Shown here: positions 31 to 4,455 of the stretch, piece by piece
How the letters are laid out: each line of letters starts with the position of its first letter
Position numbering within the stretch: position 1 is the stretch's first letter
Origin: Natronospira bacteriovora
GTDB lineage: Bacteria; Pseudomonadota; Gammaproteobacteria; Natronospirales; Natronospiraceae
Direction of reading: 5' to 3'
DNA length: 64,000 bases
Assembly: GCF_030848495.1 (NCBI RefSeq)
Contig: NZ_JAVDDT010000009.1
Coordinates: 1 to 64,000, forward strand
Program-made: the position numbers and the translations under genes
Notes under the pieces: generated by a model
Told to the model about the DNA's origin: nothing
Database searches by the model: none
Seen by the model: the letters and a program-made list of their open reading frames with translations, nothing else

Positions 31-813
31 TCACAGCACACCCAACGCCTTCAGGCTCGCCATGCCCAGTTCAACACGTTTGCCAGCGTCAGATGCTTGA
101 TGAATATCCATGTTCATTGCAAAGGGGAACAAGTTATCCTCTTTCTCGACCCAGCCAACCCACCACCCGACTCCTGGCTCGGGGGCGTTTTCCCAGCCTG
201 TCTTGCCGTAGAGTCTCCAACCCTCCCCCTGCTCTAGCAGCACAATTTCACGAACGGCTGATTGAACCTCTGCAGAGACGGGCAACTGGTTTCGAGCCAG
301 GCGCGACAAGAAACTGGCTTGTTCGATGGCGCTGATCTGGAGGGGGCCATCCAGCCAGAACCTATCAACACGCGCACCAATGTCGTTGTTGCCGAAATTC
401 AAGTTGGCGAGATTGTCGCGCATTGAATCGACGCCGATGCGTCGGGCCAGCTCCTGATACACAGGTACATTGGACATCGTGATGGCCTCTCTCAGCCCCA
501 TATCCATTTCCCATGCCTTGATGACTTGTGTCTGACCACCGTACGGCAACACCTCATCCACACTTTTGACCGCGCCAGCCGAAAGCCCGATAAGACTATT
601 TGGAATCTTGAAAGTGGAGGCGGGGACAAATCGTGTTTTGGCTCTGGACCGGTTATAACCCGTGAGCTTGCCAGTACCGGCATCCAGCAGGACAAAGGTG
701 CCCGTGGCCTCAGCGTCTCGAAACAAGCCTTCAATTTCAGCGCTTTCCTTCCAGCCTGAGGCACAGGCAGAAAGTCCAATAGAAAAGATCAGGGCGACAA
801 GTAGTTTCTTCAT
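31..813 (-). CDS. bla: Class D (OXA-type) beta-lactamase, cassette-borne lipoprotein
   Basis: This 260-residue protein carries the class D serine beta-lactamase motifs in order and at normal spacing: S66-T-F-K69 (acylated serine and the lysine that is carboxylated in the family), S114-N-V116, F140-G-N142 (usually YGN) and K204-T-G206. The segment with W153 and PLQIS, and the GWWVGWVE stretch near 216-223, resemble OXA-10-like enzymes. The product should hydrolyse penicillins and perhaps other beta-lactams; its spectrum cannot be read from the sequence. The N-terminus is a lipoprotein signal with lipobox LSAC (Cys17), so it is probably tethered to a membrane in the periplasm rather than soluble. 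The ATG lies only ten bases after the attC core at 823-829 and the stop is followed by another attC core, which is cassette architecture. No strong Shine-Dalgarno is visible. Confidence 0.93.
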   Translation of the reverse strand: MKKLLVALIFSIGLSACASGWKESAEIEGLFRDAEATGTFVLLDAGTGKLTGYNRSRAKTRFVPASTFKIPNSLIGLSAGAVKSVDEVLPYGGQTQVIKAWEMDMGLREAITMSNVPVYQELARRIGVDSMRDNLANLNFGNNDIGARVDRFWLDGPLQISAIEQASFLSRLARNQLPVSAEVQSAVREIVLLEQGEGWRLYGKTGWENAPEPGVGWWVGWVEKEDNLFPFAMNMDIHQASDAGKRVELGMASLKALGVL

Positions 814-822
814 GGTTATTGA

Positions 823-921
823 GCCTAACGCAAAGCTGAGCGGCGGGCTTGGAGCGGAGCGGAAAGCCCGTCCGGCGCAGGCCCGACCAGGGCCGGAGCG
901 AACTCGAGCGACTGGTTAAGG
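823..921 (-). other. attC site between the beta-lactamase cassette and cassette 2
   Basis: On the minus strand the site begins with CCTTAAC (R'', 915-921) just after the stop of the neighbouring gene. It ends with GTTAGGC (R', 823-829), a perfect match to GTTRRRY. The roughly 99 bp in between hold imperfect inverted repeats, with GCT/GAG pairing to CTC/AGC near the ends and GC-rich internal hairpins. Recombination would occur between G and TT of R'. Length, end motifs and position between two same-strand genes are all typical of attC. Confidence 0.88.
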
Positions 922-1336: not shown

Positions 1337-1414
1337 CCTTAACGCCCGGCTCACGCGCCGGTTTGGAGCTGCGCAGCGGCGGAAAACCGGTCGCTGTGCA
1401 GCCGATTGTTAAGT
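1337..1414 (-). other. attC site between cassettes 2 and 3
   Basis: A 78-bp site read on the minus strand. R'' is ACTTAAC (1408-1414), a perfect RYYYAAC match that contains the stop codon of the upstream cassette gene. R' is GTTAAGG (1337-1343). The interior folds into one long stem: CGGCT, CAC, GCG and CCGGTTT pair with AAACCGG, CGC, GTG and AGCCG, leaving single unpaired bases in one arm and a 19-base loop. Extrahelical bases on one arm are the strand-choice feature of genuine attC hairpins. Confidence 0.92.
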
Positions 1415-2320
1415 TCTCTTCGCAAGCAGCCAACCTATCAAACCTGCGTTTATTACCAAGTCGGCCACTCTTGAAATATCCCACACAGCGATCCTTGGAT
1501 CATCTATGTTCAGGTTCTCAAGATTCCCTGAAAATGTGTGAAAGACAAAATACATCTCGTCATACTGATGGTGTTGGTTGAATATTTCACGGTAGCTTTG
1601 GATTTGATTCGCTGTTGTGGTGGACTTTACCTGGACGAACGCGCGCTTCTGCGTAACAGGAGAAAAGACGTCAAGATCGATATCCTTTTCTGTCTTTCCT
1701 AGCACTGATATCCGCTGCCAACCGGACTGGGAAAAAATCAAGTCAATGAGCAGTTCAAAGTCATTCCACCACAGCCCTTTGATAAGGTTTTCAATATTTA
1801 CCTTCAAGGCTGCCAAAGCTTCTTTCGTTGACTGAATTTCAGGCTGAACTTCGCCGTTAATTTTTCTTAGCAGATATTCTGGAAGCTCGACCCCGCAAAT
1901 AGTGCCACGATACCCCTGAACTTTCGTAATTCTGCCATCGATGTTCTCGATGGAAAGGGGGCTTCCTTCCTTATCGTAACAACTCCAGGAGCCTATGACG
2001 TTTCTGATTCTACTGGCATCTACGAGTTCGTGAACTTCTTTATGAGCATGGCACCAGTACAGCCTTCTCTGGTAAAACGTAATCCAGATATCCGATTCTG
2101 AAAGCTCATAAAAATCACGAATCTGATTCAAGTCGCGGCTCGCCGCGCCTTGATTTCCATTTCTAGCAGAAAGCCAAAAATTGCGAACAGTATCCCAGTC
2201 ACCACTTAACGATGCCTGATGGTGTGGGCTTTCGTACCCGAGTCTAAGCGTCTGCTGTTCTTCGATGCAGTAGCGTTCCCACTTCCCGCCGTCGCCTAGT
2301 TTTATGTATCGAATCTTCAC
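1409..2320 (-). CDS. Cassette-encoded restriction-endonuclease-like (Mrr/PD-(D/E)XK) protein
   Basis: A 303-residue protein. The last 120 residues look like an Mrr-type restriction endonuclease fold: a helix with Glu189 (WNDFEL), then D215-L-D217 and Q230-V-K232 followed by Ser-Thr, which is the E...D...QxK pattern of that family. The N-terminal 180 residues are unassigned and may sense a target. The start is GTG, preceded by GGGAG four bases upstream. The stop overlaps the attC R'' core. The DNA is visibly AT-richer than the chromosomal genes to the right, as expected for an acquired cassette. No partner methyltransferase is present, so a solitary nuclease, a defence factor or an anti-phage effector are all possible; which one is unknown. 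Confidence 0.82.
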   Translation of the reverse strand: MKIRYIKLGDGGKWERYCIEEQQTLRLGYESPHHQASLSGDWDTVRNFWLSARNGNQGAASRDLNQIRDFYELSESDIWITFYQRRLYWCHAHKEVHELVDASRIRNVIGSWSCYDKEGSPLSIENIDGRITKVQGYRGTICGVELPEYLLRKINGEVQPEIQSTKEALAALKVNIENLIKGLWWNDFELLIDLIFSQSGWQRISVLGKTEKDIDLDVFSPVTQKRAFVQVKSTTTANQIQSYREIFNQHHQYDEMYFVFHTFSGNLENLNIDDPRIAVWDISRVADLVINAGLIGWLLAKRT

Positions 2321-2333
2321 GGAACTCCCAAGA

Positions 2334-2400
2334 ACTTAACAGCTGATTGTATGGCTGGCGCGATTATTGGGGATAACGCGCCGGCTAGATAAGTCCGGCG
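2334..2400 (-). other. Right boundary of the cassette array: GTTAAGT core plus hairpin, possibly attI or a degenerate attC
   Basis: On the minus strand GTTAAGT (2334-2340) is a perfect attC/attI R core directly upstream of the last cassette. Next to it (about 2358-2384) is an imperfect inverted repeat with GGCGCG-TTAT arms and one unpaired base. ACTTATC further out (2388-2394) could be a decayed R'' core with one mismatch in the essential AAC. The arrangement suits either a degenerate attC or the array's attI; I cannot decide which. No further GTTRRRY/RYYYAAC pair occurs to the right, so the array ends here. Confidence 0.45.
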
Positions 2401-3045
2401 GCAGATCGTCGGGCTGCCGGCGTTTTTGCCTGTTTATCAGAAACATAGCGCAATTCTTCCATTTCGGGTGTGGGGATACCTCGACAGTCGCATTTTCCCT
2501 TTTCAATAACACTGTATGCCCATACAGTTTTCGTAGAAAGAGGGCGCGCGATGGGGCCGGGCGGAATCGGCAGCTGCGGCAGCCGGTTCATACTCGGAAG
2601 GTGATAGGTGTGCGACGCCTTCTGAGATGGCTGGTGACGGATTGCTCGGATGCTGAGCCAGGGTTTTTGGGGAGGCAGCTGCCCGCCGGGTTGGGGTGGG
2701 GTCTGGTGAGGCTGCTTGTGCGGAGCTGCTTGTCATGGGAATTCGCCCTTTCCCTTTGGCTTGTACCCACTCTAGCTCAATTTATCCGGTTTTTCCTGCG
2801 GCTACTCCGGCGGCTTGTCGAAGCGGCAGGGGGTGGCCTGGGCCGAGGCTCGGGTGCCGAAGTCAGCTTCGAAAGCCTTCAGGCTCGGCATCGCGGGCAG
2901 GTTCATGGGGTTGCGGAATGGCAGCTTGCTGTAGGGCGAGCTTTGCCACCCGACTATTTCCACCTCACTGCTCATGGTTCGCGCCCCCGACTTATCGGTC
3001 GCCAGGCGTGTGGACATTGTCTTGTCGCGTTGAAGCCGCTGTTCC
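2401..3045. other. Gene-poor stretch right of the cassette array
   Basis: About 650 bp between the cassette array and the chromosomal amidohydrolase gene. I see a LexA-type box at 2511-2528 and several open frames on both strands that lack convincing starts or recognisable motifs. An integron integrase would be expected here on the plus strand. I compared all three plus frames with the usual tyrosine-recombinase patterns and found none, so it is either absent or too decayed to recognise by eye. Confidence 0.6.
2511..2528. promoter_or_regulatory. LexA-type SOS box
   Basis: ACTGTATG CC CATACAGT is a perfect 8+8 palindrome with a 2-bp centre. It matches the CTGT-N8-ACAG operator of E. coli-type LexA exactly. 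It lies about 190 bp upstream of the first cassette gene (leftward) and has no clear gene on its right. Integron integrase promoters commonly carry such a box, but no integrase is seen, so the regulated gene is uncertain. Confidence 0.6.
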
Positions 3046-4455
3046 CTACTCTTCTGCTTCATTGGCCCTGGGCATCCAGTAGCTCCTGCCCTCTTCTGAC
3101 CTCGGCCCGATGCGGCCTTCGGCTTGCCGGATGAGGTCCTCGGCGTTGTGCCATTGGCCGGCTTTCATGACGTGGCGGACATTGCGGGTGTGAGTGATGT
3201 CTTCCAGGGGGTTGCCGTCCACGATGACCAGGTCGGCCCATTTGCCGGGTTCGATGCTGCCGAGCTGGTCGCCCATGCCGATGGCGCGGGCGCTGTTGAG
3301 GGTGGCGATGCGCAGGACGGCGTGCTCTGGGAGGCCGGCGCGAACCATGGCCTGCATTTCCCGGTGGATGTAGAAGGGTGAGGTGTATTCACCCCAGAAG
3401 GGATGGTCGGTGGACAGGGTGATGAGGTGCCCTCCCCCGGCGTCGTAAAAGGCCTTGAGGGTGTCTTTCTTGACCCAGTAGAGGATGTCGGCCAGCTCGG
3501 TGAAGTCATCGGCTTCACGGGGCTGGTGGTGTTCGCGGGCGTAGTCGGTGAGGAAGCGCTGCTCGTCGGCGAAATCCTCGAACACGGGGGAATCGGTCTG
3601 GCCGAAGGCACCGAAGGCGGCCAGGGTGGCGCTGAAATACACACCGTGGTCGATATAGAGATCGACGATGTCACGGAAGGCCTTGCTGTCAGTGTCCACA
3701 TGCTTCCAGCTGAGATAGGCATGGCGGTCTTCCTTGAGGGTGTCGCCACCGAGGAAGTGCTCGACCCGGTCGATGCCCATGAGGATGGCGTCTTTGGGGT
3801 TGACGCTGTCGCCGACCCCGGAATTGAGGTGGCCAGTGACGGTGAGGCCCTGTTGATGGGCGGCGTCGATCAGGGCCGCCAGTTCATCGCGGGTGGGGTT
3901 CTTGGCCTTGAAGCCGGCGGTGCCCTGCTCGGCCAGCTGGTGGACTTCCTGGTGGATGGACCCGGCGCTGCGGTCGGCCTCCCAGCCGGGGCGGGCGCTG
4001 CCGAAGTACGGCCCGGAGTTGAGGATGCGCGGGCCGATGCGTTCCCCGCGGTTGATGGCCAGGCGCAGCGCGCGCATTTTCTCCGGCTGCTTTTCGCCAC
4101 CGGGAAAGGTGGTGGTGACGCCATTGCCGAGAAACATCAGCGGGTAGGCTTCGGTTTCATCCACCCGCCCGGCCTGGAAGAGATCAACATGGTAGTGGGC
4201 GTGCAGGTCGATGAAGCCCGGGAGGATGGTCTGATCGTACTCAAGCCGGATGCGTTTGGCATTCTCGATGCGATCACTGCCCTGCCCCACGGCCAGAATG
4301 CGGCCACGCTGAATGAGTATCCCGGGGTTCTCGACGCGCAGCTCACTGCGGCCATCGAAGAGGTGGCCACCGGTAATGAGTGTTGTCCTGGCATTGATCG
4401 GGCCAGGGACCAGCAGCAACAGGGCAATGAGTGACGGCAGGACGTAATGGCGCAT
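3046..4455 (-). CDS. Secreted metal-dependent amidohydrolase
   Basis: A 469-residue protein with a cleavable signal peptide (hydrophobic residues about 5-22), so it probably acts in the periplasm. The amidohydrolase fold is indicated by H85-A-H87 in the PGFIDLHAH strand end, a lysine-rich GFKAKN segment near 182, GHL and VEHF histidines, and the late STDHPF aspartate. The C-terminal GSIEPGKWADLVIVDGNPLEDI block is typical of the imidazolonepropionase/prolidase-like branch. The substrate is probably a cyclic amide or dipeptide but cannot be named. A good Shine-Dalgarno (AGAGG) precedes the ATG. It is the first chromosomal gene beyond the cassette array. Confidence 0.88.
   Translation of the reverse strand: MRHYVLPSLIALLLLVPGPINARTTLITGGHLFDGRSELRVENPGILIQRGRILAVGQGSDRIENAKRIRLEYDQTILPGFIDLHAHYHVDLFQAGRVDETEAYPLMFLGNGVTTTFPGGEKQPEKMRALRLAINRGERIGPRILNSGPYFGSARPGWEADRSAGSIHQEVHQLAEQGTAGFKAKNPTRDELAALIDAAHQQGLTVTGHLNSGVGDSVNPKDAILMGIDRVEHFLGGDTLKEDRHAYLSWKHVDTDSKAFRDIVDLYIDHGVYFSATLAAFGAFGQTDSPVFEDFADEQRFLTDYAREHHQPREADDFTELADILYWVKKDTLKAFYDAGGGHLITLSTDHPFWGEYTSPFYIHREMQAMVRAGLPEHAVLRIATLNSARAIGMGDQLGSIEPGKWADLVIVDGNPLEDITHTRNVRHVMKAGQWHNAEDLIRQAEGRIGPRSEEGRSYWMPRANEAEE

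Follow-up and report, generated by a model that had tools for sequence, protein, structure and literature searches.

Background

The genes for the lipoprotein OXA enzymes of Acinetobacter (OXA-23, OXA-24/40/72, and OXA-58) owe their mobility to insertion sequences or Xer modules and not to attC sites. Lipidated beta-lactamases stay attached to the membrane and leave the cell in vesicles, which protect neighboring cells; this was demonstrated for OXA-58, a protein that undergoes lipidation in vivo and is packaged into vesicles (PMC12691667). According to the same study, OXAs outside Acinetobacter have conventional signal peptides, and lipoprotein signals are restricted to Acinetobacter (PMC12691667). 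The carriage of resistance cassettes by sedentary chromosomal integrons is likewise established (PMC8352920).

The DNA analyzed here (the window) is a stretch of 64,000 nucleotides from Natronospira bacteriovora, the first base of which is also the first base of its contig, C9. Near this contig start, three minus-strand genes each terminate in an attC-type site (the third site being a 20-base stub). The third gene from attI, at positions 31 to 813, is a 260-amino-acid open reading frame with an ATG start that encodes a class D (OXA-type) beta-lactamase, and there is good reason to regard it as a mobile integron cassette whose product is a functional serine beta-lactamase of class D, on the OXA-50-like branch. 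Enzymes of this type are well known, and the modest twist is a putative lipid tether on a branch separate from that of Acinetobacter. A membrane-anchored OXA is not new as such, given OXA-58, but is unexpected outside Acinetobacter. If the prediction holds, the existence of a cassette-borne clade of lipoprotein OXAs elsewhere would mean that the trait extends beyond Acinetobacter and can travel by integron. The points of most interest are a conserved lipobox in a non-Acinetobacter cassette clade, a diverged twin within one genome, and an array lacking its integrase. A preliminary description of this DNA was accurate in what it described, but its emphasis was partly misplaced, falling on an FGN motif that proves routine and on a clinical link that is a matter of general plausibility.

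Identity and predicted function of the OXA protein

The window protein scored 291.9 bits against the NCBIfam class D model NF012161 (cut-off, 250) and 117.9 bits against PF00905 (cut-off, 22.1), so the class D match is not a chance one. The motifs S-x-x-K, S-x-V, [YF]-G-N, and K-[ST]-G are all present and in order, starting at residues 66, 114, 140, and 204. They occur on the minus strand as STFK (residues 66 to 69, with catalytic Ser66 and Lys69; positions 607 to 618), SNV (residues 114 to 116; positions 466 to 474), FGN in the YGN position (residues 140 to 142; positions 388 to 396), and KTG (residues 204 to 206; positions 196 to 204). Residues S66, K69, S114, G141, N142, K204, and G206 are invariant across an alignment of 41 homologues. 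The AlphaFold model of the protein has a mean pLDDT of 93.4, and its top Foldseek matches are the crystal structures of OXA-85, OXA-48, and OXA-10 (TM scores of 0.86 to 0.90). The description of the gene product as a class D enzyme with intact OXA motifs is thus borne out by family scores and motifs alike. The same description had singled out FGN as a departure from YGN, which it hardly is: FGN is also found in the sequences of OXA-23 and OXA-72 (OXA-24 family) and in 9 of 65 family rows for which a match to the motif could be made.

The best NCBIfam subfamily was OXA-50 (NF000432), matched over its full length with 328.1 bits. This is below the curated cut-off of 580, so membership was rejected and the window protein is not filed as OXA-50. 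The OXA-50 family, the chromosomal oxacillinase of Pseudomonas aeruginosa (represented by strain PA7), resembles the window protein in motif spacing, with 58% identity; unlike the window protein, the PA7 protein has YGN and no lipobox, and attC was not seen around its gene. From the intact motifs and the predicted fold, Ser66 would attack the beta-lactam ring in the periplasm with carboxylated Lys69 as the general base, and Ser114 and Lys204-Thr-Gly would assist.

Cassette structure and the twin cassette

The cassette-borne character of the gene, proposed in the preliminary description, is supported by the sites on its 5' side. An attC of 99 nt belonging to the preceding cassette lies at positions 823 to 921 (minus strand), and its R' core, GTTAGGC (positions 823 to 829), bounds the OXA cassette on its 5' side; the gap between the core and the OXA start codon is 9 nt, and the gene is in attC orientation. 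Over 99 nt, this attC shares 97% identity with one in the array that adjoins the integrase on contig C7, and it is 92 to 95% identical to two attC sites on contig C14. Taken by itself, it is hardly more strongly folded than shuffled sequences (z of −0.76), so its identity as an attC rests on repeats and core sites. The OXA cassette's own attC starts at positions 1 to 20 of the minus strand (GCCTAACAAGTCCATCAACC, with R'' GCCTAAC at positions 14 to 20) and is cut by the contig end; only 20 nt of it are present because contig C9 starts there. The attC search combined heuristics, which missed the 99-nt type or most relatives, with a covariance model, and the model applied to relatives was built from sites of the window's own genome.

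Between this boundary and attI are two further cassette genes on the minus strand. The nearer one (positions 923 to 1330) encodes 135 amino acids that matched no family and is left without an assigned function. It is preceded by a strongly folding attC of 78 nt at positions 1337 to 1414 (minus strand; z of −4.0 versus shuffles). The first cassette open reading frame (positions 1409 to 2320; 303 amino acids) gives a weak match to the catalytic domain of Mrr-type restriction endonucleases (24.1 bits against a cut-off of 21) and may represent a defense cassette.

A second OXA cassette is found in the same genome. Contig C14 (3,872 bases) carries further cassettes and then, at its end, a twin of the window gene (L023:3060-3842) with 86% protein and 83% DNA identity to it, the lipobox LSGC, and FGN. 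Like C9, C14 is interrupted within this type of attC and at an identical point, the same 20-mer pattern following the twin gene. The dN/dS ratio between the twins is 0.105 by NG86 and 0.142 by YN00, and a value of about 0.1 indicates that the protein has been under constraint (purifying selection) since the two parted.

The expression of the gene is less certain than its identity. No promoter or ribosome binding site of its own was recognized for the OXA gene, promoter-like sites being no more frequent than chance, and expression may therefore be low or nil. A core only 9 nt from the ATG leaves no room for a promoter belonging to the OXA gene, and this gap suggests that any expression would occur by read-through from the attI-side promoter. 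The third position from attI, the promoter that was not seen, and the loss of the integrase from the window's array would all suit a cassette that is silent or has a non-resistance role (e.g., penicillin binding, cell wall, or other acyl-transfer functions) and does not act as a resistance determinant in the host. Such a role is nevertheless improbable, as the dN/dS of the twins points to selection on the protein, and both motifs and fold match those of true class D beta-lactamases. A cassette for a functional beta-lactamase remains the preferred reading.

Integron platforms and the missing integrase

An intact integron integrase is encoded elsewhere in the genome, on contig C7 (395 bits against a cut-off of 265). 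There, intI is accompanied by a LexA-box-like palindrome, attI, and six cassettes, and the contig ends inside an attC. One cassette of the C7 array (L022:5557-6093) has a weak PADLOC match to PD-Lambda-3_A (E value of 1.4e-6). Joins of the end of C7 to the start of C14, which would plausibly make a single attC, and of the end of C14 to the start of C9 were considered but are not asserted, as the breaks lie in repeats.

The array in the window begins at an attI/promoter region at positions 2334 to 2530 (minus strand; core GTTAAGT at positions 2334 to 2340) that is ∼79% identical to the attI leader beside the C7 intI. A perfect LexA-box-like palindrome, CTGTATGCCCATACAG (positions 2512 to 2527, no strand), lies between attI and the place of the lost intI. 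The integrase would be expected to start within positions 2551 to 2741 on the plus strand, where intI is present in a sister genome (L138:2543-3508), but the frame is absent, and tblastn of positions ∼2300 to 4300 found no similarity to an intI remnant behind attI. The window locus is thus not a complete integron, as no intI stands beside its attI. In this same-genus genome (G001), a gene for an 84%-identical amidohydrolase is followed by a glutathione S-transferase (GST)-like gene, the intact intI, and a LexA-like box. The window has the homologous amidohydrolase gene at positions 3046 to 4455, and in its genome the GST-like gene is truncated, the 3' part (positions 2742 to 2924) being all that was found. 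The syntenic intI in G001, the truncated GST-like gene, and the absence of intI here together indicate that intI was probably deleted or replaced in the window's array.

The window attI is closer to that of the other integron of the genus (C7 and G001:C80) than to G001:C48, and this resemblance suggests a rearrangement between the two integron platforms. Sedentary chromosomal integrons with resistance cassettes (PMC8352920) likewise comprise IntI, attI, and attC arrays, as does this environmental gammaproteobacterium; unlike those integrons, the array in the window has kept its attI and LexA-box promoter but not intI. With no intI in the array, further movement of its cassettes would need the C7-encoded integrase, presumably acting in trans.

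Predicted lipoprotein signal

The N terminus of the window protein, MKKLLVALIFSIGLSA/CASGW, matches a PROSITE-type pattern for a lipobox where the signal h-region ends (LSA/C17). The lipobox, LSAC, spans residues 14 to 17 (positions 763 to 774, minus strand), and C17 is the sole cysteine in the protein, so the earlier observation that the signal ends in a lipobox stands and the protein is a predicted lipoprotein. All four members of the clade to which it belongs carry the form L-[SA]-[AG]-C (LSAC, LSGC, LSAC, and LAGC), the other three being 74 to 86% identical to the window protein. From its lipobox we infer that the window protein is a lipoprotein. Sec would export the precursor, Lgt would attach lipid to Cys17, and signal peptidase II would cleave off the signal; as there is no Asp at position +2, the Lol system would then sort the product to the outer membrane, on its inner face.

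The enzyme could instead be soluble in the periplasm, with Cys17 incidental and signal peptidase I cutting nearby, as in most OXA-50-like relatives. The lipobox is absent in 63 of 72 family rows, the sister sequences L033 and L036 have Tyr in place of the Cys (LQGY), and several relatives have cysteines in their signals that are not part of a lipobox. Retention of L-[SA]-[AG]-C by four of four clade members and the singularity of C17 speak against this, and we give a soluble enzyme a low probability relative to the lipoprotein that is favored here. The strict lipobox set used below leaves out L071 and L100, whose pattern matches were judged doubtful.

Origin of the lipobox

The window protein, its C14 twin, and the Vreelandella and Alcanivorax homologues form a clade (support of 100/100 for full-length proteins and 100/99 for the mature domain) in which all members have a lipobox and FGN and which lies near OXA-50. 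A second lipobox set, with LQGC signals, comprises Halothiobacillaceae, Methylobacter, and Thiohalomonas sequences (L039, L041, and L063) and falls in a separate supported clade of 11, beside LQGY sequences. OXA-23, OXA-72, and OXA-58 of Acinetobacter make a third group, set apart on a starred branch of its own; OXA-48 and OXA-10 fall on the Acinetobacter side of the tree, and the window protein falls outside the Acinetobacter OXA clade. Changes in the lipobox were counted on the mature-domain tree, with signal columns left out and all rows included; the strict label requires four changes, of which at least three are forced by starred branches.

Descent of the lipoprotein OXA from the Acinetobacter carbapenemases, followed by movement into an integron, would account for the lipobox and FGN that they have in common, and a forced single origin with Acinetobacter gave a p-AU of 0.0515, which is borderline and does not strongly exclude joint grouping. 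Three observations make such descent highly improbable. First, the window protein is 37 to 44% identical to OXA-72, OXA-58, and OXA-23, compared to 55 to 66% for OXA-50-like enzymes that lack a lipobox. Second, the Acinetobacter OXAs sit on their separate starred branch. Third, the starred branches impose their minimum of three lipobox changes. Apart from the lipobox, the class D fold, and, in OXA-23 and OXA-72, FGN, the Acinetobacter lipoprotein OXAs differ from the window protein in the low identity and separate branch just described. Forcing the union of the window clade with the LQGC set was also borderline (p-AU of 0.0487). The borderline AU values mean that an independent origin of the lipobox is favored but not proven. 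We lean, with some reserve, toward anchoring having arisen independently of Acinetobacter in environmental gammaproteobacterial cassettes, at least once here and probably again in the LQGC group, which would make lipoprotein OXAs a recurrent and cassette-mobile phenomenon.

Close relatives differ at the lipobox cysteine (L033 and L036 with LQGY versus L041 and L063 with LQGC) and provide natural gain/loss pairs. Natural relatives of this kind make the question of why OXAs become lipoproteins a testable one.

Relatives and probable cassette transfer

Two same-genus genomes were searched for the OXA gene: G001 lacks it, and G002 yielded no more than a class D gene with 37% identity. The closest relatives are instead in Vreelandella nigrificans (L031; 82% identity) and a metagenome-assembled Alcanivorax genome (L032; 74%), both with lipobox and FGN as in the window. 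The Vreelandella copy is flanked by predicted attC sites at L031:3893-3991 (44 bits) and L031:4794-4856 (a low score of 21 bits), and a candidate complete attC is thus available 3' of the OXA gene, where that of the window is cut. No integrase above the cut-off was found in the V. nigrificans genome, and no attC was seen near the Alcanivorax gene. For the window-Vreelandella pair, transfer in the form of a cassette is likely. The cassette, which has several others beside it in a chromosomal integron, would have been exchanged between gammaproteobacterial families, a reading supported by the predicted attC sites that flank the Vreelandella gene. Candidate attC sites also occur near the less similar OXA genes L033, L036, and L041.

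The preliminary description had viewed such a gene as part of a precursor pool for clinical resistance. This retains a general plausibility, but no close clinical counterpart was found. The viral contigs searched held no relative of the OXA, and E. coli genomes gave no DNA match to its gene. Among 72,556 plasmids, the best match was 61% identical, from a soil Azotobacter, and was the sole record above 60%. The best clinical plasmid match among these was the blaOXA of Providencia rettgeri pPROV002-IMP (L030; WP_172693599.1), which is OXA-50-like, lies in a class 1 integron with attC on both sides, and is 56% identical to the window protein. In contrast to the window protein, it has YGN and a non-lipobox signal and groups with a Marinimicrobium sequence instead of the window clade. 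On that plasmid, the OXA-50-like cassette occurs alongside IMP-4, and the plasmid gene table labels it just "class D beta-lactamase."
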